A stretch of 33,508 nucleotides of DNA from Candidatus Omnitrophota bacterium. Lineage in GTDB: Bacteria; Omnitrophota; Gorgyraeia; Gygaellales; Profunditerraquicolaceae. The position numbers and the translations under genes are program-made. Shown here piece after piece: positions 5,669 to 22,982 of this stretch. Within the stretch, counting starts at the first letter, position 1; every line of letters begins with the position of its first letter. The stretch spans positions 1 through 33,508 of the forward strand of contig JAKQSG010000009.1 in assembly GCA_029563245.1 (NCBI GenBank), written 5' to 3'. The notes below the pieces were generated by a model. The model was not told the DNA's origin. It did no database searches and saw nothing but the letters and a program-made list of their open reading frames with translations.

Positions 5669-6925
5669 ATGAAAATATTATATGATTTTGTATTTTTAAT
5701 TTTTATCTTAATAAGCTTACCGGTTTATTTATTAAAGGGCAAATTCCACCGCGGTTTCTCAAGGAGACTAGGGTTTCTGCCTAATGATCTTCCCTCTGAC
5801 CGCCCCATCTGGATTCATGCAGTAAGCGTAGGTGAGGTTGTATTAATGCGGGGTTTAATTTCACGATTGCGCTCCTCTTATCCTTCCAAAAGTTTTGTAA
5901 TTTCTACTGTTACCCCTACGGGGAATAAAATTGCCCGTTCCCTGGCAGAAAACTCAGATTTTATTACCTATCTTCCTTTTGATTTAAGTTTTATTACAGA
6001 CAGGGTGATGAGAAAGGTCAGGCCCTGCATATTTATTATTGCTGAGACTGAAATCTGGCCTAATCTTATAAGCTCTCTTTACAGCATCAAGGTCCCTATT
6101 GCCGTGCTTAATGCACGTATATCAGATAAATCTTTCAAAGGGTATTCCGCTATAAAATATTTAATTAAACCGGTTTTAAATAAAATTCATGTCTTTTGTG
6201 CCCAGTCTAAAAACGACAGGGATAGGTTGATTTCTTTAGGGGTTGATCCTGAAAGAATAGAAGTTACCGCAAGCATGAAGTTTGATCAGGCCCGGAAATT
6301 ATCAGAGGGGGTAAATAGTTCTAAGGACAAATTATCGCTGAAGGAGGGAGAGGTTCTTTTAGTAGCAGGTTCAACCCACCCGGGTGAAGAGAGAATTTTA
6401 TTAAACATCTATCGTAAACTTCTGGGGGCTTTCCCTTATCTTCGTCTTCTGCTTGCCCCGCGTCATCCGGATAGGGCGGATAAAATCGCAGCCCTGGTAA
6501 GGCATTTTGGATTTAAACCCTCTCGGATAAGTTTATTCCAGCCTAAAGAGGCTTTGAAGGATACGGTTTTCATTTTGGATACGGTAGGAGAGTTAATTTC
6601 ATTTTATGCGGCCGCAGATATAGTTTTTGTAGGGGGAAGCTTGGTGAAAAAAGGAGGGCAGAATATTCTGGAGCCTGCTTCTTTGGGAAAGCCGGTAATC
6701 TTTGGCCCGCATATGTTTAATTTTCGCGATATTGCCGCGGAGTTTTTAGGGAGCAAGGCGGCGTTGCAGGCCTTAACCCCAAAAGACCTGCTATTGATAA
6801 TAAAGGATCTTTTAGAGAATAAGGGCAGAACAATTGAACTTGCCAGGAATTCAAAAGAGGTAATATTGAAGAATCAAGGCGCTACCGAGAAAAGCCTTGG
6901 TTTAGTAAGAAAACTCATTGTTTAG
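5669..6925 (+). CDS. waaA: 3-deoxy-D-manno-octulosonic acid (Kdo) transferase
   Basis: WIHAVSVGEV, IFIIAETEIWPNL, VLNARISDKS, AGSTHPGEE, RHPDR and GGSLVKKGGQNILEPA are WaaA/KdtA motifs. Confidence 0.95.
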   Translation: MKILYDFVFLIFILISLPVYLLKGKFHRGFSRRLGFLPNDLPSDRPIWIHAVSVGEVVLMRGLISRLRSSYPSKSFVISTVTPTGNKIARSLAENSDFITYLPFDLSFITDRVMRKVRPCIFIIAETEIWPNLISSLYSIKVPIAVLNARISDKSFKGYSAIKYLIKPVLNKIHVFCAQSKNDRDRLISLGVDPERIEVTASMKFDQARKLSEGVNSSKDKLSLKEGEVLLVAGSTHPGEERILLNIYRKLLGAFPYLRLLLAPRHPDRADKIAALVRHFGFKPSRISLFQPKEALKDTVFILDTVGELISFYAAADIVFVGGSLVKKGGQNILEPASLGKPVIFGPHMFNFRDIAAEFLGSKAALQALTPKDLLLIIKDLLENKGRTIELARNSKEVILKNQGATEKSLGLVRKLIV

Positions 6926-6956
6926 AATCGGCGATCATGTTACTATTTATCAAATT

Positions 6957-7676
6957 ATGGATATAAGGGCACGGCAGAAAGATAGTGTGGTTATCTTGGA
7001 TTTATCCGGTAGGATTGACGTAAATTCCGCCAATCTGGTTGAGGCTATCGGCCAGTGCCTGCGGGATGGCTATTGCGATATTTTATGCAATCTTGAAGAA
7101 GTGGAGTTTATTGACTATATGGGTATCTCGGTTGTGGTAATTGCCTATAAGGAGGTTATTAATTCCCAGGGGAGGATTAAGTTTGCCAATGTACCGGCGC
7201 ATATCCGTAACATTTTCTGTATTGCAGGTCTGGAAAAGGTTGTAGAGGTATACCCCGATGAAGAATCCGCGCTAAAAAGTTTCAGCGAGGATAGAATTAT
7301 CGAGGATATAAAAAAGCTGCAGCTTAGGCGCAGGTTTAAGCGTCTGCCTATAGATATTAAGATAGAGCTTAAAGCTAAGGGCCAGAGGAGCCCTCAATGC
7401 CTGCATCTGGACCTGATTAATTTAAGCGCAGTAGGCGCTTTTATATTTGGTTGCGACCAATTTAAGCTGGGGGATGAGGTAATCTTGAGGATGAAATTAC
7501 CCCCGCATCAAAAAGAGATAGAATTGGATGCTAGGGTTGTCTGGATTCCCGATAAGCAAATTCAGCCACACGCTTATCCCGGCATGGGGTTAGAATTCAC
7601 CAATACTCCTACGGATATCCAGCAGAGGCTGGTGGAGTTTATTGAAAGGAACCTTTCTTTTATGTCATCGGATTAA
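6957..7676 (+). CDS. STAS-domain / PilZ-domain fusion protein
   Basis: N-terminal STAS (VVILDLSGRIDVNSANLVEAI...LEEVEFIDYMGISVVV...). C-terminal PilZ with RRFKR (RxxxR) and NLSAVGAF (NxSxxG). ATG 6957 preferred; the track start at 6918 is a non-ATG overlapping waaA. Confidence 0.8.
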   Translation: MDIRARQKDSVVILDLSGRIDVNSANLVEAIGQCLRDGYCDILCNLEEVEFIDYMGISVVVIAYKEVINSQGRIKFANVPAHIRNIFCIAGLEKVVEVYPDEESALKSFSEDRIIEDIKKLQLRRRFKRLPIDIKIELKAKGQRSPQCLHLDLINLSAVGAFIFGCDQFKLGDEVILRMKLPPHQKEIELDARVVWIPDKQIQPHAYPGMGLEFTNTPTDIQQRLVEFIERNLSFMSSD

Positions 7677-8467: not shown

Positions 8468-8740
8468 ATGGACTGGAGAGTATTTTTAGGGACCTTCGGA
8501 GCTGTTTTTTTTGCGGAATTAGCTGATAAAACGCAGATGGTGGGGATTACTATGGCTGCTAAGACAGGCAAGCCACTTTTGGTCTGGCTTGGTTCGGTTT
8601 GTGCGTATATTATCGTTACGATTATATCGGTTATAATCGGAGCAGCTATGGCTAAGTTTATTAATCCTCAGGCAATACGTTATTTTAGTGCGGGTACTTT
8701 TATTCTCTTGGGAATACTTATGCTGATGAGGGTTGTTTAA
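8468..8740 (+). CDS. TMEM165/GDT1 (UPF0016) family, single-repeat half-size membrane protein
   Basis: VFFAELADKTQMVGITMAAKTGKP matches the ExGD[KR][ST] family motif (Gly to Ala here). Three hydrophobic segments in 90 aa; strong SD TTAGGAGGAGAAATG. Confidence 0.85.
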   Translation: MDWRVFLGTFGAVFFAELADKTQMVGITMAAKTGKPLLVWLGSVCAYIIVTIISVIIGAAMAKFINPQAIRYFSAGTFILLGILMLMRVV

Positions 8741-8747
8741 TATTGAT

Positions 8748-9803
8748 ATGAAAGGGTATTTTTATAGTATAGTAACAGACAGGCAGAAAGGGGCCTTGGC
8801 GGAATTGATAAAGCCTTTCCTTTTTATTCTCTCCCTGATTTACGGTATTATCATACGCGTTTTAATCTCCTGTTCTTCTTTTGATCAAAAGCGTTTTAAT
8901 TTAAGGATAATCAGTGTAGGTAATATTACCGTAGGCGGCACAGGTAAGACCTCCCTGGTTGAATTAATTTCCAGGTATCTTAAGGGACGTGGTAATTCCC
9001 TGGCCATTCTTACTCGCGGGTATAAGCGTAAAGGTCTTGACTACGCAGGAGATGAACCCAGGATGCTTGCTAAGAATCTGGAAGATACCCCGGTTATTAT
9101 TGACAAAAATAGAGCCCGTTCGGCAAGAAGGGCTGTAAGGGAATATAATTGTGATACAGCTATATTAGATGACGGTTTCCAGCAATGGCACATAAAGAAA
9201 GATTTAGATATAGTGGTGATCGATTCCCTTAACCCTTTTGGCAACAGGCATATGCTGCCGCGAGGTTTATTGCGTGAACCTTTAAGTTCCCTGAAGAGAG
9301 GGGATATTTTTGTCTTGAGCAAAACTAATTTTGTCAGCAGGGGGGATTTAGATAAAATCAGGCTTTCTTTGGTTAAATATAACCCCAGGGGATTAATCGT
9401 TGAATCTATCCACAAACCGGTCGGTTTTTATAATATAAAAGAGCCGGGTAAATTACTCAGCTTAGTCTGCCTTAAGAAAGAGAAAGTTGTCCTTTTGTCT
9501 GGCATTGGCGACCCAGTATCTTTTCTAAAGACGATCTCCGGCCTAGGGGTGGGGGTAGGGTTGGAATTGGTTTTTTCCGACCATCATTATTATACCGTTA
9601 GGGAGATAGAGGTAATTGCCGATAGGGCTAGAAGGAGCGGTTTAAAATTTATTGTTACTACGGAAAAAGATGCGGCAAGGATTTCTGAAGAGGCCATATC
9701 TATCCTGGGAGATCTTGAGATTCTTATCTTACGCATAGAATTGAAGATCGTAAAGAATGAAGAACCCTTTTTTAATCGATTACTTGGGCTGTATTCTCTT
9801 TAA
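8748..9803 (+). CDS. lpxK: Tetraacyldisaccharide 4'-kinase
   Basis: IISVGNITVGGTGKTSLVELI, LTRGYKRKG, GDEPRML, ILDDGFQQWHIKKDLDIVVID and SDHHYYT motifs. ATG 8748 preferred over the upstream TTG 8733. Confidence 0.95.
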   Translation: MKGYFYSIVTDRQKGALAELIKPFLFILSLIYGIIIRVLISCSSFDQKRFNLRIISVGNITVGGTGKTSLVELISRYLKGRGNSLAILTRGYKRKGLDYAGDEPRMLAKNLEDTPVIIDKNRARSARRAVREYNCDTAILDDGFQQWHIKKDLDIVVIDSLNPFGNRHMLPRGLLREPLSSLKRGDIFVLSKTNFVSRGDLDKIRLSLVKYNPRGLIVESIHKPVGFYNIKEPGKLLSLVCLKKEKVVLLSGIGDPVSFLKTISGLGVGVGLELVFSDHHYYTVREIEVIADRARRSGLKFIVTTEKDAARISEEAISILGDLEILILRIELKIVKNEEPFFNRLLGLYSL

Positions 9804-11664
9804 GGTATTTGGTCCGTTTCTCAGGGCAATGCCTTTAAATTTAAGCTTCTTTTTAGGGAGGCGTCTAGGCGATTTCTTCTATTATTTTGATTCTAAACAT
9901 AAGGCAATAGCATATGCCAATATTAAGAAGGTTTTTGGTTCTATCGCTTCTCCTGCCGGGCTCTCCCGTTTGACGCGAGATTTTTACCAATCTTTCGGGC
10001 AAAGTATCATCGAGGTATTTTTAATCCCCTTAATCGACCAAGATTACATAGATAAGTATATTACTATTGAAGGCAAGGAGAGGGTATTAGAGGCTTTTAA
10101 GAAGAAAAAAGGGGTAATACTTGTTTCTGTCCATGCCGGTAGCTGGGAGCTGGCCAATATTATCAGTTCTAATCTTGGTTTCCCTTTTTCTATGTTTATA
10201 AGACAGCAGGGTTTGCCCAGGCTTAATAAGCTGCTTAATGGCTATCGTAAGCAGAGGGGCTGCCGTATTATAAGCCGCGAAGGAGGCCTGAAAGAGGCTA
10301 TCGAGGCCTTGAATAATAACGAGGCAATTGGCATGACCGTTGACCAGGGCGGGAGTACAGGTTTATTAATTGATTTCTTTGGGTTTCCAGCCTCTATCCC
10401 TAAGGGAGCAGTGAAGCTGGCCTTAAGGCATAAGGCTGTTTTAATCCCCATATTTTTTGCGCGTATTAACGGGCCTAAAATCAAGGTTTGGTCAGGCGAA
10501 GAGATCTCATTATCGGGAAGCCAGGATGAAAGCGTTGATATAAGGAGTATTTTGCGTAAGGCCATCGCTATATTCGAAAACTTTATTTTTAATAATCCGA
10601 AAGAATACCTGTGGACTTATAAAATATGGAAACATTCAAATAAAAAAAAGATACTCATCTTAAACGACGGCAGGACAGGGCATTTGCGCCAGTCAGAGGC
10701 AGTAGCAAGGTTAGCGCAGGAGGTATTATCCAGGCAAGATATAGAATCAGAAGTTGAAATGGTAGAAGTAAGCTTTAAGAATAACTTTCGCAGAATTTTG
10801 TTAAATTTATTCCCTGTTTCTCTTGAAAAATCGCTTTCTCCCGATTCATTTAATAAAGTCTTTGGCATTTCCGCGGATATAATTATATCCGCCGGCTCTT
10901 CTCTCTCTGGTGTAAATTTTCTTCTTTCGCGGGATAATTTGAGCAAATCGATTGTTGTTATGCGCCCCGCTCTTTTAGGCCTAAATAAATTTAACCTTGT
11001 GATTGTCCCCCGTCATGACCTTCCGGCAAGAGGCAAGAATGTGGTTGTTACAGATGCTGCGCTTAATTTAATTGATGAAGAATCCATTGGTTTAGAGTCA
11101 AAGAAACTTTCCGCTAGTAAGGGTTTAAATAAAGGTCGCCTTTATATGGCAGTGCTAGTCGGAGGTAATAGTAAGCGCTTTAACCTCTCTCCAGTCTTAA
11201 TTCTCAGGCTTATGGAAGAATTAAAGTCCTTGAGCCGTAGTTTAAATGCTGATATCCTTCTTACTACCTCAAGGCGTACCCCCAAAGAGGCGGAAGAAAT
11301 TATTAAGAGGGAGCTAAAAGGTTTTGATGCCGTGAAACTAATGGTTATTGCCAATGAGGCAAATATTCCGGAGGCGGTAGGCGGCATGTTGGGCTTAAGC
11401 GATATTATTATTTCTACCCCCGAGAGCATCTCTATGATTTCAGAGGCAGTAAGCAGTAGGAAATATGTATTTGTTTTTAATGCCCCGGGATTAAGCTTAA
11501 AACATGAGCGTTTTTTGAAATATCTTGCGGAAAGAAAATATATCTATAGGGATGAAATTGGCAATCTGGGTAATATGATTAAAGGCGTTTGGGCGGCTAA
11601 GCCTGTTTTACCTTCTCTAAGGGATAGCCAGTTGGTTAGCCAGGCCTTAAATAAAATATTGTAG
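9757..11664 (+). CDS. Lipid A acyltransferase (LpxL/HtrB family) fused to an ELM1-like (mitochondrial-fission ELM1 / GT-B-like) domain
   Basis: N-half: VSVHAGSWELANII (HX4E motif), TVDQGG, FFGFPASIPKGAVKLAL. C-half from about 10640: ILILNDGRTGHLRQSEAVARLA ... STPESISMISEAVSS, an ELM1-type pattern. Overlaps lpxK by 47 nt. Confidence 0.85.
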   Translation: MKNPFLIDYLGCILFKVFGPFLRAMPLNLSFFLGRRLGDFFYYFDSKHKAIAYANIKKVFGSIASPAGLSRLTRDFYQSFGQSIIEVFLIPLIDQDYIDKYITIEGKERVLEAFKKKKGVILVSVHAGSWELANIISSNLGFPFSMFIRQQGLPRLNKLLNGYRKQRGCRIISREGGLKEAIEALNNNEAIGMTVDQGGSTGLLIDFFGFPASIPKGAVKLALRHKAVLIPIFFARINGPKIKVWSGEEISLSGSQDESVDIRSILRKAIAIFENFIFNNPKEYLWTYKIWKHSNKKKILILNDGRTGHLRQSEAVARLAQEVLSRQDIESEVEMVEVSFKNNFRRILLNLFPVSLEKSLSPDSFNKVFGISADIIISAGSSLSGVNFLLSRDNLSKSIVVMRPALLGLNKFNLVIVPRHDLPARGKNVVVTDAALNLIDEESIGLESKKLSASKGLNKGRLYMAVLVGGNSKRFNLSPVLILRLMEELKSLSRSLNADILLTTSRRTPKEAEEIIKRELKGFDAVKLMVIANEANIPEAVGGMLGLSDIIISTPESISMISEAVSSRKYVFVFNAPGLSLKHERFLKYLAERKYIYRDEIGNLGNMIKGVWAAKPVLPSLRDSQLVSQALNKIL

Positions 11665-11682: not shown

Positions 11683-13770
11683 TTGAATATACTTCAAATT
11701 CTACCGGAATTAAATGTTGGGGGGGTTGAAACTGGCACTTTAGATTTAGCCAGGCACCTTATCCGCCTAAATCATAAAGCGGTTGTAGTATCTGCCGGAG
11801 GGGTTTTGGTTAAAGACTTGGAGGAGTCCGGCGCCAAGCATTACCAGCTTTCGGTTAATAAGAAGTCGATATTATCAATGGCCAGGCTAGTCCCGCTTCT
11901 GCTCGATATTATTAAAAAAGAAAATATAGATATAGTGCATGCGCGCTCAAGGGTCCCTGCCTGGATAGCTTATTTTGCCTGTCGAAAAAGCCGGGCTATA
12001 TTTATTACTACCTGCCACGGTTATTATACAAAACATCCATTTAGTTATGTGATGGGATGGGGGAAGAGGGTGATTGTATTAAGCAATATTATAGCCCGTC
12101 ACATGATAGAAGATTTTTCTGTTCCTCACGAGAGGATACGTTTAATCCCGCGTAGCGTGGATCTGGATAAGTTTAAATATTTAAGCCCTGATAAAAAAAG
12201 AGGGAGAGAGTTTAATGTAGGGATTATCGGGAGGATAACTCCTCTTAAGGGGCACCTCTACTTTGTTAAGGCGATGGCAAAGGTTGCCAGGGCGATACCC
12301 TATCTAAAGATTTGGATTGTTGGGGATGCTTCTGCATCCCGCCAGGCATATAAAGAAGAAATACAGGTCTTGGTAAAAAGGCTTGGGTTGACCCATTGCA
12401 CCGAGTTTTTAGGTACGCAAAAAAATATCCCTGAAATTCTCTCTCATTTAGACCTCCTGGTTTTGGCTACTACTACCCATGAAGCATTCGGCAGGGTAAT
12501 TATTGAGGCCCAGGCAGCGGGAGTCCCGGTTGTGGCTACAGAAGTAGGCGGAGTCGTAGATATTATCGAAAATAATAAAAACGGGCTTCTTGTCCCTCCT
12601 GCTGACCCTGATACTATGGCTGAAGCAGCCATAAGGATATTCAAAGATCCTCAACTGGCTCTTTCTTTGTCCCAAGCAGCTATAGACACGGTAAAGGAGA
12701 AGTACAATATCTCTCTGATGGTTGAGAATACACTTAAGGTTTATGAGGAGGCTTCCAGTAAATTCAGCCTTTTAATTATCAAATTAAGTTCCCTGGGAGA
12801 TATTATCTTGTCTACCCCAGCCTTAAGGGAGATACGAAGAAAATTCCCCCATCATAAAATCAGTTTATTAGTGGGGGAAGAGTCTAAAGACTTGCTCTTT
12901 AAATGTCCGTATATAGACGAGCTACTGGTAGCGGATTTTAAAAACAGGGACAAAGGTCTAAGTGGGCTCTTGGGTATCGCTAGGGGGTTAAGAAGGAAGG
13001 GCTTTGATTTGGTTATTGATCTTCAGAATAACCGTATAAGCCACATACTTTCTTTTCTCTCCCTAAGCCTCAATAGGTATGGTTATGATAATAAGAAGCT
13101 GGGTTTTTTGCTTAACCACCGGATTAAAGATAATAAACCAAAGATAGGCCCGATTGAACATCAGTTTAAGGTGCTTAAACTTTTAGGGATAGACTTAAAG
13201 GATAACCGCTTGGAGCTATGGCCCTCAAAAAGCGACGAGGAGTATGTAGAAAAACTATTAAATACCCAATGGTTAAGCCAGGAACAGATAATTATCGGGA
13301 TAAATATCAGTGCAAGCAAGCGGTGGGCCACTAAATGTTGGCCTAAGGAATACATAGTTAAGCTTTGCGATGAGCTGGGTTTAAGGAATATGCGGGTGGT
13401 AATGACCGGTACCGAAGATGACCTGCCCGCGGCAAGTATGCTTGTCAATACTGCCAAAAATACCAAGATAATTAATGCCTGCGGTAAGACTACTATTAAT
13501 CAGTTGGCTGCTTTAATTAAGCGCTGCGCAGTCTTTATATCTGCTGATTCTTCGCCATTGCATATTGCTGCTGCGGTAAATACTCCGGTAATCGCATTTT
13601 TCGGTCCGACGGATCCGTTAAGGCATATGCCTCCGGCTAAAGATTATGTTCTTATCCGCAAGGAATTATCCTGCAGCCCTTGTTATAAGGCAAAATGTAA
13701 ACATGGTAAATGTATGAATTCAATAACCGTAGAAGAGGTTATTCGGGGAATAGAGAAGCTTTTAAAATGA
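11683..13770 (+). CDS. Bifunctional-looking glycosyltransferase: GT4 domain fused to GT9 heptosyltransferase-like domain
   Basis: GT4: LPELNVGGVETGTLDLARHL, GRITPLKGHLYFVKAM, EAFGRVIIEAQAAGVPVVATEVGGV. GT9: SLLIIKLSSLGDIILSTPALREIRRKFP, FISADSSPLHIAAAVNTPVIAFFGPTDPLRH. TTG start with SD AAAGGAG. Confidence 0.88.
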   Translation: MNILQILPELNVGGVETGTLDLARHLIRLNHKAVVVSAGGVLVKDLEESGAKHYQLSVNKKSILSMARLVPLLLDIIKKENIDIVHARSRVPAWIAYFACRKSRAIFITTCHGYYTKHPFSYVMGWGKRVIVLSNIIARHMIEDFSVPHERIRLIPRSVDLDKFKYLSPDKKRGREFNVGIIGRITPLKGHLYFVKAMAKVARAIPYLKIWIVGDASASRQAYKEEIQVLVKRLGLTHCTEFLGTQKNIPEILSHLDLLVLATTTHEAFGRVIIEAQAAGVPVVATEVGGVVDIIENNKNGLLVPPADPDTMAEAAIRIFKDPQLALSLSQAAIDTVKEKYNISLMVENTLKVYEEASSKFSLLIIKLSSLGDIILSTPALREIRRKFPHHKISLLVGEESKDLLFKCPYIDELLVADFKNRDKGLSGLLGIARGLRRKGFDLVIDLQNNRISHILSFLSLSLNRYGYDNKKLGFLLNHRIKDNKPKIGPIEHQFKVLKLLGIDLKDNRLELWPSKSDEEYVEKLLNTQWLSQEQIIIGINISASKRWATKCWPKEYIVKLCDELGLRNMRVVMTGTEDDLPAASMLVNTAKNTKIINACGKTTINQLAALIKRCAVFISADSSPLHIAAAVNTPVIAFFGPTDPLRHMPPAKDYVLIRKELSCSPCYKAKCKHGKCMNSITVEEVIRGIEKLLK

Positions 13771-14867
13771 AGATAATGCACTTGATAAATCATCTTAATA
13801 TAGGCGGTATCGGAAGCTATGCCTTGAATTTATCAGCAGGTTTAATAAAGAAAGGCCACCGGTTATTTATCGCTTCTTCCGGAGGAGAATTGCTGGGAGA
13901 ATTTAACAGGCTTGGCGTAGAGCCCATTCGGGTTTCCTTAAATACAAAGAATGAGTTAAGCCCGAAGATCGTATTAAGCCTAATTAAATTATATAAAGCA
14001 GTAAGGGAGAATAAGATTGATATACTGCATTCCCATAGCCGGACTACACAGGTATTGGGTTGTCTATTGCAGAGGTTTACAGGCGTAAAGCATGTTTTTA
14101 CCTGCCATGGTTTCTTCAAAAGGCGTTTTTCACGCAGGGTTTTTCCCTGTTGGCCGGATAAGATTATTGCTATAAGCGACCAAGTCAGAGAACATCTAAT
14201 TAATGATTTTAAATTAAGTCCGCAGAGGATAGATTTAGTCTATAATGGTATTGATATGGATAAGTTTAGCCCGCCATCTTTTGAAAACAGGCAAAAGGCC
14301 AAACTGAAAATAGGGCTGGGGTCTGGGCCAGTAGTGGGAATTTTAGCGCGTCTATCCGATGTAAAAGGGCACAGGTATCTTATCGAAGCAATGAAGGATA
14401 TCCTGCCGATTTATCCTCAGGCTCGATTGCTTATTGCAGGAGAGGGGAAGATGGAGAAAGAGTTAAGAAAACTCACCGAAGATTTCGGCATCAAAGCGAA
14501 TGTTATATTCGTAACCAATACCATAGATACCAGAGAGGTTCTTTCTGCCATAGACTTTTTTGTGATGCCTTCACTCAATGAGGGGTTAGGAATGGCGTTG
14601 ATGGAGGCGATGAGTATGGGGCTTACGGTTATAGGCTCTAGCGTAGGAGGGATAAAGACTTTAATCAAGGATAAAGAAAATGGTTTGTTGGTTAATCCGA
14701 AAGATCCCCGCGGCATTTCTCAGGCTATTATTAGTTTAATCTCTGATTCCAAGAAGGCCCTTGACCTGGGGAGGAATGCGCATAAGTATATGGTGAATAA
14801 TTTCTCTCGAGATAAGATGGTTTTTAACACAGAGCAAATATACTTGCGATGCCTGCAGGGTAACTAA
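13767..14867 (+). CDS. Glycosyltransferase family 4
   Basis: MKIMHLINHLNIGGIGSYALNLSAGL, ILARLSDVKGHRYLIEAM, NEGLGMALMEAMSMGLTVIGSSVGG. ATG 13767 overlaps the previous stop (ATGA), so the track start at 13710 is unlikely. Confidence 0.9.
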   Translation: MKIMHLINHLNIGGIGSYALNLSAGLIKKGHRLFIASSGGELLGEFNRLGVEPIRVSLNTKNELSPKIVLSLIKLYKAVRENKIDILHSHSRTTQVLGCLLQRFTGVKHVFTCHGFFKRRFSRRVFPCWPDKIIAISDQVREHLINDFKLSPQRIDLVYNGIDMDKFSPPSFENRQKAKLKIGLGSGPVVGILARLSDVKGHRYLIEAMKDILPIYPQARLLIAGEGKMEKELRKLTEDFGIKANVIFVTNTIDTREVLSAIDFFVMPSLNEGLGMALMEAMSMGLTVIGSSVGGIKTLIKDKENGLLVNPKDPRGISQAIISLISDSKKALDLGRNAHKYMVNNFSRDKMVFNTEQIYLRCLQGN

Positions 14868-14883
14868 AGGACTAAATTTACCA

Positions 14884-15906
14884 ATGAAGGATTCAGGGAA
14901 CAAGAGAGTATTGATTTTCAATGTTAACTGGTTAGGGGACGTTTTGTTTTCTACCGCCGCCATCAGGAATATCCGGCGTAATTTCCCGCATAGCTTTATC
15001 TCCTGTATCGTACCTAGCAGATGTTACCCTATATTAAAGGGTAATCCTAATTTAGACGAGATTCTTATCTTCGACGAAAAGGACAGGCATAAGGGGATAT
15101 TCCAGCGTTTTGAATTTGTCCGTACCTTAAGAATGAGAGATTTTGATATTGTTTTTCTTTTGCACCGGTCTTTCAGCCGGGCGCTTATGTGCCGGTTAGC
15201 CGGTATCCCCGAGAGGATAGGCCATTACACCAGGAAAAGAGGGTTTTTATTAACTAAGAAGATTATCCCCCCGCACAGGGATTCTCTTCACCGCATAGAT
15301 TATTATCTGGATATTATTGAAAGGGCAGGTTTTAAAGTAGAAGACAGATATACGGAATTCTTTTATAGCGATAGCGATGAAAAGCGCGTGAAGGAGTATT
15401 TAAAGGCCAATCTGGTAAAAGAAGATGATTCTATAGTTGTTATAAACCCTGGTGGCAACTGGCTCTCTAAGCGTTGGCCCAAAGAGTTTTGGTCTCATGT
15501 ATGCGATAGGTTGGCAGAAGAGCTTGAGGCAAAGATTGTCATAACAGGCGGGCATAATGATTTATCACTGGCAGGACAGATTAAAGATAGGATGAAGGCT
15601 AAGCCTATAATTGCCTGCGGAGTATTTAACATAAAGCAACTTGCGGCTTTATCTAAGCAGTCCAGTGTTTTTATTACGGCTGATACCGGCCCTCTTCATA
15701 TAGCAAACAGCGTAGGCGCGAAAAGAATAATTGCTATTTTCGGTCCGACCTCCCCCCAGATTACCGGTCCGTACCCGTCAAAGAATGTGGTAATATTACA
15801 AAAGGATGTAGGATGTAAGATCCCCTGCTACGAATTAAAGTGCAGGGATAACCGCTGTATGAAGGCGGTTACTCCGGATGATGTAGTTAGGGCAGTAGTC
15901 TCCTAG
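14884..15906 (+). CDS. Glycosyltransferase family 9 (ADP-heptose:LPS heptosyltransferase-like)
   Basis: VLIFNVNWLGDVLFSTAAIRNIRRNFP, VINPGGNWLSKRWPKEFW, FITADTGPLHIANSVGAKRIIAIFGPTSP. Confidence 0.9.
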   Translation: MKDSGNKRVLIFNVNWLGDVLFSTAAIRNIRRNFPHSFISCIVPSRCYPILKGNPNLDEILIFDEKDRHKGIFQRFEFVRTLRMRDFDIVFLLHRSFSRALMCRLAGIPERIGHYTRKRGFLLTKKIIPPHRDSLHRIDYYLDIIERAGFKVEDRYTEFFYSDSDEKRVKEYLKANLVKEDDSIVVINPGGNWLSKRWPKEFWSHVCDRLAEELEAKIVITGGHNDLSLAGQIKDRMKAKPIIACGVFNIKQLAALSKQSSVFITADTGPLHIANSVGAKRIIAIFGPTSPQITGPYPSKNVVILQKDVGCKIPCYELKCRDNRCMKAVTPDDVVRAVVS

Positions 15907-15956
15907 GAGATGATGGGAGAAAAGATACTTTTTACCAACTTTAGGAATATCGGCGA

Positions 15957-17189
15957 TTGTATTTTTTGCTGTCTTTAGGCGCCTTCAGGTGTGTTTTTCC
16001 TATAGGAGAGAAAATAGATCAGTCCGCAAGGCTAGAAATCAGCAACGATAGCGAGGTTATACGTATGGCCAACCATCTGGAGAGTTTTTTAAGCGCGGCA
16101 AGAAGAGTCCTGCGTCCTGGAGAAAGTCGGGGATTAGGTTTTGTTTTACCCCATGAATACAAAAGAATACTGGTTGTGCGCACGGACAGAATTGGGGATG
16201 TGGTTTTGTCTACCCCAGTCATTAAAGTTCTGCGGGATAATTATCCGCATGCCTTTATCGCGATGATGGTTTCCCCTCATTCTAAAGAGATTGTGGAAGG
16301 GAATCCTTATCTTGATGAAGTAGTGCTTTATGATAAAGACGCTAAAGAAAAGGGGTGGCTTTCTTCTATTAAGTTCTCACGGAAATTGAATAAAAGCAAG
16401 TTCGATATAGCAATAATCCTGCATCCGACTAACCGGGTTCATCTGATATCGTATTTAGCCGGCATCCCTAAAAGGATAGGTTATGATAGAAAGATGGGCT
16501 TTCTTTTAACCGATAAATTCAGCCATACAAAGCAGTTAGGCCAGAAACATGAATTAGAATATAACCTAGATTTATTGGAGAATTTAGGGCTGAGGATAGA
16601 TGATAAGAAGCTTTTTATGCCTATAAGGTCTGCCTCTGAAGAATGGGCGGAAGATTTTTTTAAATCGCAGGGGATTAATAATGCCGATAAGCTCCTACTT
16701 ATTAATCCTGCGGCAAGTTGTCCTTCAAAGATTTGGCCTTCAGATCGTTTTGCGCAGGTAGCAGAGAGGTTGGCCCAAAGATACGGCCTAAAGGTTATAA
16801 TCGTCTGTGGGCCTAAGGATGTTTTTATTGCTGAGAAGGTTATTGCTCAGATGAAGATTCCTGCCTATTCCTTGGCGGGTAAGGTTTCGCTTTCTCAACT
16901 GGCCAGCCTGTTGAAGAGGTCCGCTTTATTTATCTCGAATGATTCCGGGCCAGTGCATATCGCTTCGGCTTTGGGGGTTGCGGTAATCTCTATTTTCGGT
17001 AGAAAACAGAAAGGTTTAAGCCCTAAGCGCTGGGGGCCGATAGGTATTAGGGGCAAGGCATTGCATAAAGATGTGGGTTGTATTAATTGCCTGGCCCATA
17101 ATTGCAAGAAGGAGTTTGCCTGCCTTAAGGCAATTACCGTAGAAGATGTATTAGGGGCTGCGGACAACTTATTGAGATGCGGGGTTTAA
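15957..17189 (+). CDS. Glycosyltransferase family 9 (heptosyltransferase-like) with anomalous N-terminal extension
   Basis: Core from KRILVVRTDRIGDVVLSTPVIKVLRDNYP, INPAASCPSKIWPSDRFAQVAERL, FISNDSGPVHIASALGVAVISIFG. The 5' end is uncertain: the track start is TTG 15957, and a short GT9-like N-terminus sits upstream in another frame (see findings). Confidence 0.8.
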   Translation: MYFLLSLGAFRCVFPIGEKIDQSARLEISNDSEVIRMANHLESFLSAARRVLRPGESRGLGFVLPHEYKRILVVRTDRIGDVVLSTPVIKVLRDNYPHAFIAMMVSPHSKEIVEGNPYLDEVVLYDKDAKEKGWLSSIKFSRKLNKSKFDIAIILHPTNRVHLISYLAGIPKRIGYDRKMGFLLTDKFSHTKQLGQKHELEYNLDLLENLGLRIDDKKLFMPIRSASEEWAEDFFKSQGINNADKLLLINPAASCPSKIWPSDRFAQVAERLAQRYGLKVIIVCGPKDVFIAEKVIAQMKIPAYSLAGKVSLSQLASLLKRSALFISNDSGPVHIASALGVAVISIFGRKQKGLSPKRWGPIGIRGKALHKDVGCINCLAHNCKKEFACLKAITVEDVLGAADNLLRCGV

Positions 17190-17296: not shown

Positions 17297-18310
17297 ATGA
17301 AAAGACTTAAGGATATAGTAAAAAAGTTTAAGCGCGCGCGCATTTTAGTTATTGGCGACTTAATTTTAGATGAGTATATCTGGGGGAAAGTCGAGCGGAT
17401 CTCCCCGGAGGCTCCGGTTCCGGTAGTGTGGGCAAATAAAGAGACTCACCTCCCGGGAGGGGCGGCTAATGTGGCAAATAATATCAGTTCCTACGGGGCT
17501 TGTGTTTCTTTAGCCGGAGTTATAGGAGAGGACAAAAACGCAGGCATACTCAAAGGTGTATTAAAAAAAGCAAACATTGATACAAAAGGAGTTTTTGTTT
17601 CTCCTGGCAGATGCACGACGGTAAAAACCCGCATTATCTGTGGGCATCAGCAGATAGTAAGGGTTGATTGGGAGCATACCGAAACATTGCCCAAGAAGAC
17701 AATCTGCAGGATTTTCAATTTTATCAGGAGAAATATTAACGCCTTTGATGCCATTATCATAGAGGATTACGGTAAGGGGGTAATTAACCCTCAGCTTCTT
17801 GAGGGCTTAATCCTTCTTGCCCAGTCGAATAAGAAAATAATTTTGGTTGACCCTAAAGAGGATCATTTTCAGTATTACCGCGGAGTTACCTCTATTACTC
17901 CTAACCGCAAGGAGCTAGAGAATGCCGTAAGAAATCTGAAAATTAATGATAAGGGAAATAAGCTAAAGCTGGAGAGCGACAAGCTTTTTGATGATTCCGA
18001 TATTGAGGCAGCCGGTAAGCAAATATTGGAATATCTGGGGCTTGATTCTTTACTGGTTACATTAGGGGAACAGGGGGTTAAGTTATTTGAATATAATGGG
18101 AGGGTAACAAATATCCCTACGGTAGCTCAGGAGGTCTTTGATGTTTCCGGTGCCGGAGATACGGTGATTGCCACTTTTGCCTTGAGCCTGGCTGTAGGTG
18201 CCAGCAAAGTAGAGGCAGCTCATATCGCTAATTATGCCGCCGGGATTGTTGTAGGTAAAATAGGTACGGCTACCTTAACTTCAGATGAGTTGATAAGGGG
18301 GTTAGGTTAA
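17297..18310 (+). CDS. hldA: D-glycero-beta-D-manno-heptose-7-phosphate kinase (RfaE1/HldE kinase domain, PfkB family)
   Basis: VIGDLILDEYIWGKVERISPEAPVPVV, LPGGAANVANNI, VDPKEDHFQYYRGVTSITPNRKE, VFDVSGAGDTVIATFAL. Confidence 0.92.
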   Translation: MKRLKDIVKKFKRARILVIGDLILDEYIWGKVERISPEAPVPVVWANKETHLPGGAANVANNISSYGACVSLAGVIGEDKNAGILKGVLKKANIDTKGVFVSPGRCTTVKTRIICGHQQIVRVDWEHTETLPKKTICRIFNFIRRNINAFDAIIIEDYGKGVINPQLLEGLILLAQSNKKIILVDPKEDHFQYYRGVTSITPNRKELENAVRNLKINDKGNKLKLESDKLFDDSDIEAAGKQILEYLGLDSLLVTLGEQGVKLFEYNGRVTNIPTVAQEVFDVSGAGDTVIATFALSLAVGASKVEAAHIANYAAGIVVGKIGTATLTSDELIRGLG

Positions 18311-19053
18311 TGATGGATGTGATAGGGGTTATACCGGCAAGATATTCTTCAACCCGTTTTCACGGCAAGGTCCTGGCGGATATAATGGGCAAGCCCATGA
18401 TTCAACATGTCTGGGAGAGGGTAAAACAGGCAAGGATGCTGGATGATATTATCGTTGCCTGCGACCATGAAGAGGTTGCAGAGGTTGCTTTAGGGTTCGG
18501 TGCAAAGGTAGTAATGACTTCCAAGTCGCATGTTTGCGGTACCGATAGAATTGCCGAGGTAATTAACCCTTTGGATGTAAAGATAGTGGTTAACATCCAG
18601 GCAGATGAACCCTTAATCCATCCGACCATGATTGATAGCCTCGCACGCGCCTTACTGGAAGATAACTCTGTTTCCATGGCTACAATTATGAAGAGGATAG
18701 TTGATCCAGCTTTAATAAACGATTCTAATGTTGTTAAGGTGGTAACAGATAAGAATAATTTCGCTTTATATTTCTCGCGTAGCGTTATTCCCTATGCAGC
18801 AGCTAATTCGGATGTAAAGGATCCGCAATATTTTAAGCATATCGGGCTTTACGGTTATACCAAGGACTTCCTTTTTATCTACAAGAACCTTCCGGTTTCG
18901 GATTTAGAGAGAAGCGAAAAACTGGAACAATTAAGGGTGTTGGAGGAAGGGTTTAAGATTAAGGTTATTGAGACAATGTTTGATACTATCGGCATTGATA
19001 CCCCTGATGATTTGCTTAAGGTTGAGGAGTATCTTAAGAAAGAGGCGATATGA
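18310..19053 (+). CDS. kdsB: 3-deoxy-manno-octulosonate cytidylyltransferase
   Basis: VIPARYSSTRFHGKVLADIMGKPMIQHVWER, VCGTDRIAEVI, NIQADEPLI, FSRSVIPY, KHIGLYGYTKDFL, EKLEQLRVLE. Confidence 0.96.
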   Translation: MMDVIGVIPARYSSTRFHGKVLADIMGKPMIQHVWERVKQARMLDDIIVACDHEEVAEVALGFGAKVVMTSKSHVCGTDRIAEVINPLDVKIVVNIQADEPLIHPTMIDSLARALLEDNSVSMATIMKRIVDPALINDSNVVKVVTDKNNFALYFSRSVIPYAAANSDVKDPQYFKHIGLYGYTKDFLFIYKNLPVSDLERSEKLEQLRVLEEGFKIKVIETMFDTIGIDTPDDLLKVEEYLKKEAI

Positions 19054-19880
19054 TGCGGCAGGTGAGCCTAGGCAATATTAAGATCGGCCAGGGGAGTAAG
19101 TTAATTCTTATTGCCGGGCCGTGCGTGATTGAATCGGAGGGCTCCTGTTTGAATATTGCCAAAAGGATTAAGGATATTACCTCAGGTTTAGGGGTTCCTT
19201 TTATATTCAAGTCGAGTTTTGATAAGGCTAACCGGCTTTCCCTGGAATCTTTCAGAGGGCCGGGTATAAAAAAAGGGCTGGATATATTAAGAAATATTAA
19301 GAAGAAAATAAAGGTCCCCATATTAAGCGACGTACATTGCGTAAAGGATATCTTTGAGGCTGCAAAGGTGTTGGATATTATCCAAATTCCCGCTTTCTTA
19401 AGCCGCCAAACCGATATCGTTGTTTCTGCAGCCAAGACCGGTAAGATAGTGAATATAAAGAAGGGGCAATTCTTGGCGCCTTGGGATATTCTGCCGATAA
19501 TTAAGAAAGTAGAATCTACGGGCAATAGGAATATTATTATTACTGAGCGCGGGGTATCTTTCGGGTATAACAATCTAGTTACTGATTTCAGGGCTTTAGA
19601 AATTATGCGTCAATTCGGCTATCCGGTAATTTATGATGCTACCCATAGTATCCAGATACCCGGGGGCAAGGGGAATTGTTCTTCGGGACAGCGCCAGTTT
19701 GTAGAAGGTTTATCCCGAGCAGCAGTTGCCTTTGGATGCGATGGGTTGTTTCTGGAGGTCCATTCTGATCCGGATAAGGCGCTTTGCGATGGATCAAATA
19801 TGATCGATCTTAAGGGGTTAGAGAAATTGCTTAAACAGGTAGTTAAAATAAGGCGTTCTTTAGGAGAAGAGGAGAGTTAA
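19050..19880 (+). CDS. kdsA: 3-deoxy-8-phosphooctulonate synthase
   Basis: LIAGPCVIESE, FKSSFDKANRLSLESFRGPG, PILSDVH, IQIPAFLSRQTD, KKGQFLAPWD, DATHSIQIPGG, LFLEVHSDPDKALCDG. Confidence 0.97.
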   Translation: MMRQVSLGNIKIGQGSKLILIAGPCVIESEGSCLNIAKRIKDITSGLGVPFIFKSSFDKANRLSLESFRGPGIKKGLDILRNIKKKIKVPILSDVHCVKDIFEAAKVLDIIQIPAFLSRQTDIVVSAAKTGKIVNIKKGQFLAPWDILPIIKKVESTGNRNIIITERGVSFGYNNLVTDFRALEIMRQFGYPVIYDATHSIQIPGGKGNCSSGQRQFVEGLSRAAVAFGCDGLFLEVHSDPDKALCDGSNMIDLKGLEKLLKQVVKIRRSLGEEES

Positions 19881-20849
19881 GTGAAGATAAATGTTTTAAG
19901 GAGGGGCAGAGAGGTTCTGGAGACCGAGGCTTCGGCTATAAGGGACCTTAAGAGCCGTATCAACGGTAATTTTAAGCAGGCAATAAACCTAATTCTAAAG
20001 ACTAAGGGTAGGGTTGTTGTAAGCGGTATGGGAAAGACCGGGATAATTGCCCAGAAGTTTTCCGCCACCCTGGCTTCAACCGGAACTCCCAGTTTATTTT
20101 TACATACTGCCGAGGCTATACACGGAGATTTAGGAAAGGTTACCTCTTCTGACGTGGTGGTTATTCTTTCTAATAGCGGTTCAACTGAGGAGATGAGGAA
20201 GCTACTGCCTCTTTTAAAAAAAATAGGTTGTAAGGTAATTGCCCTGACCGGTAATACTAAGTCAATCCTGGGCAAATACAGCGATGTGGTTTTAGATGTA
20301 TCAGTAAGAAAAGAGGCCTGTCCCTTAGGTTTAGCTCCTACTGCGTCTACTACGGCATCTTTAGCAATGAGCGATGCCTTGGCAGTATGTTTATTGGAAT
20401 TAAAAGGTTTTAAGGAGAAAGATTTTGCCTTTTTCCATCCCGGCGGCGCATTAGGGAGGCGGTTGCTTTTAACCGTGGCAGATATTATGCGTACCGGAAA
20501 GGATAACCCGATAGTTAAGGAGAGGGAAAAAGTTTCCGAAGTACTTCTTAAAATTACTCAGTCCCGCGCAGGTTCGGCTACGGTAGTGGATAAGTCCGGA
20601 AAGTTAACGGGGATATTTACAGACGGGGATTTGCGCCGTAACCTCAAAACAGATGCGCGTATGCCCTTTCGCAATATAAGCGAAGTGATGACTAAGAATC
20701 CTTCGGTAATAACCGAGGATATGCTGGCGGCTGAGGCAATGCGGATTATGCAGGATAGGCGTATTGATGAGCTTCCGGTAATTGATAAGAAGAGGCGCCC
20801 GGTGGGGTTATTGGATGTTCAGGATTTACTTAAAGCAGGCTTAGTTTAG
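19881..20849 (+). CDS. kdsD: Arabinose-5-phosphate isomerase KdsD/KpsF (SIS + CBS pair)
   Basis: VSGMGKTGIIAQKFSATLASTGTPSLFLHTAEAIHGDLG, SNSGSTEE, LAPTASTTASLAMSDALA, FFHPGGALGRRLL and two CBS domains. GTG start. Confidence 0.95.
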   Translation: MKINVLRRGREVLETEASAIRDLKSRINGNFKQAINLILKTKGRVVVSGMGKTGIIAQKFSATLASTGTPSLFLHTAEAIHGDLGKVTSSDVVVILSNSGSTEEMRKLLPLLKKIGCKVIALTGNTKSILGKYSDVVLDVSVRKEACPLGLAPTASTTASLAMSDALAVCLLELKGFKEKDFAFFHPGGALGRRLLLTVADIMRTGKDNPIVKEREKVSEVLLKITQSRAGSATVVDKSGKLTGIFTDGDLRRNLKTDARMPFRNISEVMTKNPSVITEDMLAAEAMRIMQDRRIDELPVIDKKRRPVGLLDVQDLLKAGLV

Positions 20850-20859
20850 CTATTTTTAT

Positions 20860-21393
20860 ATGGAAGACAACAAAAAAATAAAAGAATTTGCGAGTAAGAT
20901 AAAATTGCTGCTTTTGGATGTTGACGGAGTGCTTACCGACGGGCGTATCATTTATGACTCCCGGGGCAGGGATTCTAAGTTTTTCGATGTGCACGACGGG
21001 CTGGGGGTATATCTCTTAAGCAAGGCAGGGGTAAAGACTGTCCTTATCACTGCCAAGAGTTCCGCTACTATTAAGCCTCGGGCAAGGGATATGCGTGTGG
21101 AAGAGGTCTTTGGCGATGTCTCACCTAAAAGCGCTATACTGGGCAAGCTTCTTAAGAAGTATAACGTCAGCGAAGAAGAGGTTTGTTTTGTCGGGGATGA
21201 TCTTGTAGACCTAGGCTTAATGAGGCTGGTTGGGTTTGGAGTTGCCGTGGTCAATGCCTGTTCGGAGATAAAAAACGCAGCTTCTTATGTAACTATAAAA
21301 CATGGCGGTCGGGGGGCAGTAAGAGAGATAGCGGAATTGATTCTTAAGTCCCAAGGGAAGTGGGATGCCATTATAAGGAATTATGAATTATAA
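20860..21393 (+). CDS. kdsC: 3-deoxy-D-manno-octulosonate 8-phosphate phosphatase (KdsC, HAD)
   Basis: LLLLDVDGVLTDGRIIYDSRG, FDVHDGLGVYLL, ITAKSS, FVGDDLVDLGLM, VTIKHGGRGAVREI. Confidence 0.93.
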   Translation: MEDNKKIKEFASKIKLLLLDVDGVLTDGRIIYDSRGRDSKFFDVHDGLGVYLLSKAGVKTVLITAKSSATIKPRARDMRVEEVFGDVSPKSAILGKLLKKYNVSEEEVCFVGDDLVDLGLMRLVGFGVAVVNACSEIKNAASYVTIKHGGRGAVREIAELILKSQGKWDAIIRNYEL

Positions 21394-22279
21394 AAGTATA
21401 TATCTACTTTTATTTTTGTGTTTTTTCTTTCCCTCTTTTGTATTTGCGAATGTTATTCCTGATCAATCCGCTCAGCAGATAAGTGATTTTTCTTTAGTGG
21501 GCTATGAGGAAAAAGGCAAAAAGAGCTGGGATATATCCGGGCGTTCAGCGGATATCTTTACGGAGGTGGTTAAGCTAAAAGACGTAAACGGGAATTTATA
21601 CGGCAAAGATGAAGACGTTAACCTTACCGCTAAAAAAGGTGATTTTAATAAGGAGGACGGCAAGGTTTCCTTAAAAGAGGATGTGGTTATTACTACATCT
21701 CAAGGCGCAAGGCTTACTACTGATTCCATGGATTGGGACAGGAAGAATCAGGTGGTTACAACTAAGGATAGGGTTAACATAGATAAGGATAATATAAATA
21801 TCGTAGGAATCGGGGCGCATGGGGAGCCGGGGTTAAACAGGATGGCTTTAAATAAAGATGTACGTGTTGACATTAATCCGCTTGGCCCCGAGGATAGTAT
21901 TGATGATTTAGTGATTAAGGACAGGGTCATAATAACCTGCGACGGGCCGATGGAGGTGGATTACGCCAAGAATATCGCCTCTTTTAATATTAATGTCAGG
22001 GTGGAAAGGCCAGATATCATTATCTATAGCGATAAGATGGATATTTATTTTACAGCCCAAGATAAAGGTTCTAAGTCTATTAAGACGGCCGAATCAATGG
22101 CCGGGAGTATAGACAGGATCGTAGCCAGTGGTAACGTGAGGATAGTGCGCGGGGACAATGTCTCCTACAGTCAGGAGGCTGTATATACTGCGCAGGATAA
22201 GAGGATTGTCTTGAACGGCCGTCCAAAATTAGTTTTTTATTCTATGGAAGAGTTTAAAAATGCATCTTTTGGAGATTAA
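21383..22279 (+). CDS. LPS export protein with LptC-like N-terminal and LptA/OstA-like C-terminal regions
   Basis: N-terminal hydrophobic/signal segment ([16 protein letters not shown]), then LptC-type pattern ([23 protein letters not shown]...[28 protein letters not shown]), then OstA-like repeats ([26 protein letters not shown]...[24 protein letters not shown]). Immediately upstream of lptB. Confidence 0.75.
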
Positions 22280-22982
22280 AGATTTAAGCAAGTCTTACGG
22301 TGAGAGAGAGGTCGTGCGCGGAGTCGATATTCTGGTTAAACGCGGCGAGATCGTTGGCCTCTTGGGTCCTAACGGGGCCGGGAAGACTACAACCTTTTAT
22401 ATGATCGTAGGTATTATCCCCCCTAACCGCGGTAGGATAGTATTTGATAATTATGATATTACTAATCTTCCTATCCATGAGCGCTGTCGTTTCGGCATAA
22501 GCTATCTCTCTCAAGAGGCCTCGATATTCAGAAAGCTTACCGTTGAAGAAAATATCCTGGCCATCCTGGAGACGCTGCCGATAGGAAGGGGTGAGAGGAA
22601 AAGAAGGCTGGATAGTTTGCTCAATGAGTTAAATATTGCACACTTAAGGAAGAATAAATCTTATACTTTATCGGGAGGAGAAAGAAGAAGGCTGGAGATT
22701 ACAAGGGCCTTGGTTACTAATCCCTCCTTTATATTATTGGATGAACCATTCTCCGGGATTGACCCGATCGTGGTTAACGAAGCCCAGGAAATTATTAAAG
22801 AGTTGAGAGAGAAGGGGCTGGGGATTTTGCTGACGGATCATAATGTAAGGGAAACATTATCCATAACTGACCGCGCATACCTTATAGCTGATGGCAAGAT
22901 TCTTATTTCTGGTACAGCCAGCGATCTCATCAGCAATACTAAGGCGCGGCAGGTTTATTTGGGAGAAAAATTCAAGATGTAG
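22260..22982 (+). CDS. lptB: LPS export ABC transporter ATP-binding protein
   Basis: Walker [40 protein letters not shown], signature [15 protein letters not shown], Walker [25 protein letters not shown]. Overlaps the previous ORF by 20 nt. Confidence 0.95.

Follow-up and report, generated by a model that had tools for sequence, protein, structure and literature searches.

Late acyltransferases of the LpxL/HtrB type are enzymes of lipid A synthesis that depend on 3-deoxy-D-manno-oct-2-ulosonic acid (Kdo): the substrate of LpxL is tetra-acylated Kdo2-lipid IVA. The bacterial ELM1 proteins take their annotation from a plant mitochondrial-fission factor and, to our knowledge, had no known function before the description of KdoT. 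Here we describe a gene in which these two families are joined. It lies in a stretch of 33,508 nucleotides from a Candidatus Omnitrophota bacterium (assembly GCA_029563245.1, contig JAKQSG010000009.1; the whole stretch is called the window below), where a single open reading frame (ORF) at 9757–11664 encodes an LpxL/HtrB-type acyltransferase followed by an ELM1/KdoT-type glycosyltransferase domain of the GT-B fold.

The closest described relative of the second half is A1S_2903 (KdoT, GtrOC1) of Acinetobacter baumannii, for which a study of December 2025 showed a Kdo transfer with CMP-Kdo as donor and Kdo2-lipid IVA as acceptor, and which favours this tetra-acylated acceptor. KdoT relies on the arginines of its SRRT motif, R180 most of all; the mutants H109A, D110A, D8A and H13A are each still active; a divergent homolog from Rickettsia complements; and in A. 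baumannii cells KdoT depends on GnaT, an enzyme of glycosyltransferase family 4 (GT4) (PMC12856342). KdoT, or protein 2903, belongs to the ELM1/GtrOC1 family (PMC12856342, PMC10936431), of which the outer core (OC) loci of A. baumannii hold further members: GtrOC14, 19a, 19b and 22 (PMC10327509). The original prediction for this DNA called bacterial ELM1 proteins poorly characterised, a description now partly outdated by the work on KdoT. A literature search made largely without subscription journals and preprints found no description of an LpxL–ELM1 fusion and, in the papers covered, no experimental assay of a lipopolysaccharide enzyme from Omnitrophota. The combination is new; both component families were already known.

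Our reading is that the fused protein is probably a bifunctional inner-membrane enzyme, for which one Kdo-lipid IVA intermediate serves as acceptor of both a secondary Kdo and a secondary acyl chain. Its main support comes from the domain scores, the conservation of motifs, the homology to KdoT, the locus with its conserved gene order, a second fusion in Methylophaga, the acceptor preference of KdoT, and one genome (G041) that lacks several of these genes.

An acyltransferase–ELM1 fusion and its conservation in Omnitrophota

The ORF (on the plus strand, as are its domains and motifs and the waaA, lpxK, glycosyltransferase, hldE, kds and lpt genes described below) begins with ATG, encodes 635 amino acids and has no internal stops. 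In a Pfam profile search, the N-terminal half (residues 1–292, 9757–10632; LpxM/PatA fold) matches Lip_A_acyltrans, PF03279, over residues 13–292 (E 5.5e-45; 154 bits, cut-off 22.3) and the C-terminal half (residues 298–635, 10648–11661; GT-B fold) matches ELM1, PF06258, over residues 308–600 (E 3.9e-48; 165 bits, cut-off 27). The spacing between the end of the acyltransferase and the start of ELM1 is about 10 residues. The original prediction, made from the sequence alone, had described one 635-residue ORF directly after lpxK, with a complete acyltransferase and with ELM1 from about residue 294. All of this was borne out: both matches lie far above their cut-offs, the ELM1 part begins at about residue 296, and lpxK (8733–9803) overlaps the start of the fused ORF by 47 bases. 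The HX4E motif that it had recognised, HAGSWE, corresponds to H126 and E131 (residues 126–131, 10132–10149).

In the acyltransferase half H126, W130, E131, R164, D196 and G202 are invariant among 57 aligned sequences. This half matches LpxM (5kn7) in a profile search (E 4e-24), and Foldseek retrieves A. baumannii LpxM (5knk, E 1.8e-14) and PatA (TMt about 0.85). It resembles LpxL/HtrB in having the full PF03279 domain, the HX4E motif, the fold and the position after lpxK and waaA; it differs in being followed by a glycosyltransferase and in belonging to a separate clade. In a tree of acyltransferase halves, those from fused proteins group together as a single clade (99/95; 98% of bootstraps), and the two other groups of LpxL-like paralogs in these genomes fall outside it; this topology supports one fusion event early in the phylum.

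The fused protein was matched in 59 of the 59 nearest genomes, mostly as one uninterrupted frame of 600–680 amino acids, so that chance and sequencing error are excluded as its source. Rather than two genes with a stop between them, every clean locus in records named Omnitrophota (56 of 56) holds a single ORF without stops. In a sample of the phylum PF06258 was found in 357 of 384 genomes and, among the PF06258 matches listed, nearly all lie in frames long enough for both domains; a poorly scoring family, f38, is likewise fused. The gene order xerC–waaA–lpxK–[LpxL~ELM1]–[GT4~GT9]–GT4–GT9 is conserved in nearly all loci that extend far enough, the GT4~GT9 fusion (with a heptosyltransferase-like GT9 part) being downstream in nearly all relatives. 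The systematic searches covered Omnitrophota together with plasmid and phage collections. Of the best 80 loci in a scan of genome contigs for the fusion, 78 are titled Omnitrophota or Omnitrophica, one is titled "uncultured bacterium" and one "Planctomycetales"; the last (L089) looks mislabelled, being an Omnitrophota metagenome-assembled genome (MAG).

It might be suspected that the fusion is artefactual or arose by accident in this one gene, as the window comes from a MAG that is 73% complete and as one genome (G327) has its ELM1 broken between two places. This explanation has practically no probability left: it is already refuted by the relatives, the one-ORF fusion being found again in independent assemblies throughout the phylum, and the identical architecture is present on a complete Methylophaga plasmid. 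In G327 (L191:5416–10506, L192:2670–4514), the first part of ELM1 terminates the fused gene after lpxK, and its last part is found about 85 kb from there, within a 1696-residue frame that precedes the GT4~GT9 gene, the result of an inversion or a misassembly.

In family f4, two genomes (G038 and G045) carry the halves separately, with ELM1 elsewhere beside a GT9 gene; in G038 the unfused LpxL half has stayed at the waaA locus, directly behind lpxK. Because the separate pieces nest within the fused clades in the trees of both halves, this arrangement is a later split.

A second fusion in Methylophaga

The complete plasmid pWTT2411 of Methylophaga pinxianii encodes a protein of 674 amino acids, WP_226069883.1, with PF03279 at residues 11–296 and PF06258 at residues 374–660, which is annotated in its record only as "ELM1/GtrOC1 family putative glycosyltransferase". 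Downstream are GT4, glycosyltransferase and GT9 genes and an O-antigen ligase, i.e., a core locus for lipopolysaccharide (LPS). The order of the domains and the LPS core setting are those of the Omnitrophota fusion, whereas the linker is about 75 residues long rather than about 10 and both halves are of separate origin. The ELM1 half shares 35% identity with KdoT across 97% of the KdoT length and groups with it (100/100), while the acyltransferase half groups with gammaproteobacterial LpxL (100/98); the same architecture thus originated here independently.

This second origin is the strongest comparative argument that both activities serve one intermediate. Together, the spread throughout a phylum and the repetition in Methylophaga make the fusion more than a curiosity. 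As comparative evidence, they speak strongly for an action of these ELM1 domains on a lipid A or inner-core intermediate. A link of ELM1 with lipid A or the inner core had been proposed in the original prediction, and it is well supported by the locus, the Methylophaga fusion and KdoT; the reading of the ELM1 half as a Kdo transferase goes beyond that proposal. In evolutionary terms, it is about an even chance that Omnitrophota ancestrally coupled, in a single bifunctional enzyme, secondary acylation of lipid A with a Kdo addition independent of WaaA, and that gammaproteobacteria reached the fusion independently. If so, the split Kdo pathway of A. baumannii would be an old and widespread route of LPS assembly, in which acylation and inner-core extension are gated together.

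An ELM1 protein on a Pseudomonas plasmid (L143:1495–3837) has an N-terminal part of about 430 residues without a Pfam match. "Phage" contigs of 170–380 kb (H14–H22, Acinetobacter phage MD-2021a) with lpxL/htrB/ELM1 look mislabelled, as does the group of H5, H7 and H8, A. baumannii "plasmids" of 3.7–4.1 Mb.

The ELM1 half, KdoT and the sugar donor

The KdoT sequence, taken for comparison from an A. baumannii OC locus, aligns to the C-terminal half only (BLASTP, 28% identity, E 1e-17; hhalign, 99.6%), and the ELM1 half is, judged by these alignments, homologous to KdoT. A residue map places KdoT D8, H13, H109, D110, R179 and R180 at D304, H309, H420, D421, R506 and R507. Thus D8 and H13 have their equivalents in DGRTGH (residues 304–309, 10666–10683), H109–D110 in the HD pair (residues 420–421, 11014–11019) and S178–T181 in SRRT (residues 505–508, 11269–11280). 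Across 57 sequences the invariant positions of the ELM1 half are D304, G308, Q312, G380, N387, H420, D421, G469–G470, S505–R507, N536, S557, S559, M560 and E563, with H309 nearly invariant. The motif SRR[TS] occurs in 126 of 129 fused frames, the other three being incomplete. The histidine of DGxxGH is common to KdoT, Methylophaga and Omnitrophota and is absent from the alphaproteobacterial ELM1 proteins examined; SRRT, which had been considered as a signature of KdoT, was downgraded, since the alphaproteobacterial proteins carry it too.

The resemblance to KdoT therefore consists of a PF06258 domain of GT-B fold, the motifs DGxxGH, HD and SRRT at matching places and a location in an LPS core locus; KdoT differs in being a stand-alone protein of 296 amino acids, about 28% identical, which lies outside the Omnitrophota branch and whose product, Kdo III, is the third Kdo of a core that has no heptose. 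The comparison with WaaA (KdtA) is looser: WaaA shares the GT-B fold, the neighbourhood and, if our view of the donor is right, CMP-Kdo, but is a PF04413 protein encoded by a separate gene (5669–6925).

Modelling of the full length with AlphaFold2, one of the checks proposed with the original prediction, used an alignment of 57 rows and gave a confident two-domain model (mean pLDDT 90.7, pTM 0.87), with an LpxM/PatA fold and a GT-B fold; the model suggests that the halves have a defined arrangement. The C-terminal half alone reached a pLDDT of 94.6. A sequence search of the PDB matched the acyltransferase half and found no match for the ELM1 half, for which a structural search was therefore used: Foldseek returned MGD1, MurG, UDP-GlcNAc epimerases and other GT-B proteins, just as DALI had given MurG for A. 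baumannii ELM1 protein 2903 (PMC10936431). Matches in the Foldseek viral library were exclusively generic GT-B ones. A further fold match of the ELM1 half (E 2e-8) is to a large complex I subunit of the Tetrahymena respiratory chain (8gym_T1, 8b6f_A0), a hint that there may be a mitochondrial protein resembling GT-B enzymes.

The plant ELM1 is known as a factor that localises dynamin, not as an enzyme (cited in PMC10936431), and KdoT survived single mutations of its candidate bases (PMC12856342), as might be expected if the domain in Omnitrophota were a non-catalytic module for binding lipid or a partner, which holds the acyltransferase in place or brings in the glycosyltransferase that acts next. 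We regard this as quite improbable, given that the model shows a GT-B fold in full and that the donor-site motif and the cleft residues stay invariant though overall identity drops to about 40%.

The bifunctional enzyme that we favour would work at the inner face of the inner membrane, during LPS assembly. WaaA would place Kdo on lipid IVA; the ELM1/KdoT-type half would then transfer a further Kdo from CMP-Kdo onto that placed by WaaA, with R506 and R507 of SRRT holding the donor and D304, H309, H420 and D421 lining the cleft; the H126/E131 dyad of the LpxL-type half would move a secondary acyl chain onto the Kdo-bearing lipid IVA; and the GT4~GT9 enzyme of the next gene would extend the core. 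One polypeptide would thereby carry out two steps that share a lipid intermediate, coupling acylation with inner-core extension before GT4~GT9 acts. Because KdoT favours a tetra-acylated acceptor, the comparison suggests that addition of Kdo precedes acylation. The sequences show the fusion, its intact motifs, its conservation along with the locus and its second origin, and the two-domain fold is predicted; it is from homology and locus that we infer Kdo as the donor, and the acceptor, the order of the steps and any coupling likewise. CMP-Kdo supply and the pathway to a Kdo-lipid A acceptor are both at hand, waaA, lpxK and kdsB, kdsA, kdsD and kdsC all being within the window.

Several observations weigh against this reading. 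In an unrooted tree of 40 ELM1 sequences, KdoT and Methylophaga make up one branch, the alphaproteobacterial types a third, and the Omnitrophota halves a deep branch of their own, not nested with KdoT. SRRT-like motifs occur throughout PF06258, so that the donor is not fixed by the motif, and conservation at the HD, D8 and H13 positions is weak mechanistic evidence, because H109A, D110A, D8A and H13A KdoT stayed active. KdoT adds its third Kdo in a heptose-free core; with hldE1 and GT9 genes in the window locus, the position of the acceptor must differ or be shared. The acyltransferase half scores below every NCBIfam LpxL equivalog cut-off (82 bits against 297.8 for TIGR02207, the lpxL/htrB subfamily) and would by these scores be a PF03279 late acyltransferase outside the narrower LpxL/LpxP subfamily TIGR02207. 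The fusion is also not obligatory, G038 and G045 managing with ELM1 as its own gene beside GT9.

The depth of the Omnitrophota branch makes a change of donor possible, and the main rival is accordingly an active inner-core glycosyltransferase with another donor, e.g. ADP-heptose, a hexose or a uronic acid. The GT-B fold is silent on the donor (in structure it comes closest to MGD1, MurG and UDP-GlcNAc epimerases), heptose genes are present in the locus, and GtrOC14, 19a, 19b and 22 need not be Kdo transferases (PMC10327509). However, the only ELM1 transferase that has been assayed uses CMP-Kdo and its divergent Rickettsia homolog complements (PMC12856342), the kds genes stand in the same run, and the ELM1 half of the Methylophaga fusion is clearly KdoT-like. 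Another donor is an unlikely alternative, albeit one to be taken seriously.

On the side of the bifunctional reading is G041, a genome in two contigs and 96% complete. It has kept lpxC and two LpxL paralogs, but LpxK, WaaA, ELM1 and a full KdsB are missing, and it may have an outer-membrane lipid pathway without Kdo. ELM1 and WaaA are jointly absent more often than expected (an overlap of at least 9 of 27, where 1.9 were expected), but this statistic was mostly discounted, because the two genes are neighbours and, in fragmented MAGs, go missing as a pair: G041 is the sole clean case.

If the donor is Kdo, the step that adds Kdo independently of WaaA extends beyond Proteobacteria, into a phylum that is deep and uncultured. 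The fusion would offer a single-protein system for direct study of the coupling between acylation and Kdo transfer, it predicts a feature of LPS in organisms difficult to culture, and it gives the bacterial ELM1 family, formerly puzzling, a testable role.

Most Omnitrophota ELM1 halves (L032–L110) contain a cysteine-rich insert, SGKYxCQGCLxCL, a possible metal or Fe-S site, which is missing in the window protein (about residues 343–356) and its closest relative. A few Omnitrophota genomes (L112, L113, L114) have an additional stand-alone ELM1 of alphaproteobacterial type (Pfam above 300 bits), which was probably acquired.

The surrounding locus

The genes of the window follow the order aroC, aroK, dprA, topA, xerC, waaA, a STAS-PilZ gene, a HAD phosphatase gene, lpxK, the fused ORF, GT4~GT9, GT4, GT9, GT9, hldE domain I, kdsB, kdsA, kdsD, kdsC, lptC/A, lptB, tig and clpP, so that the genes for synthesis of CMP-Kdo and those for building and exporting Kdo-lipid A form one run on one strand. 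The Kdo transferase gene waaA (kdtA) is recognised by PF04413 (E 5.8e-58) and NF004388 (E 1.4e-109), and lpxK, for the lipid A 4'-kinase, by PF02606 (E 2.5e-72). Directly downstream of the fused ORF is the GT4~GT9 glycosyltransferase fusion (695 amino acids, 11683–13770); that the gene next to the fusion encodes a GT4 domain recalls GnaT, which is suggestive only. Then come three ORFs for GT4, GT9 and GT9 core glycosyltransferases (13710–17189), hldE domain I (hldE1, heptose 7-phosphate kinase; 17297–18310; TIGR02198, 377 bits against a cut-off of 345), four ORFs for CMP-Kdo supply, kdsB, kdsA, kdsD and kdsC (18310–21393; TIGR00466, TIGR01362, TIGR00393 and TIGR01670, above cut-off), and the lptC/lptA-like and lptB genes of LPS export (21383–22982; PF06835, PF03968; TIGR04406).

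No Pfam family matches the ORF of 577 amino acids at 27301–29034, which is flanked by a serA-like and an HMGL-like gene. The two-domain STAS and PilZ gene (6918–7676) is found between waaA and lpxK in many relatives, and may be an input of cyclic di-GMP or of a phospho-signal into LPS synthesis.
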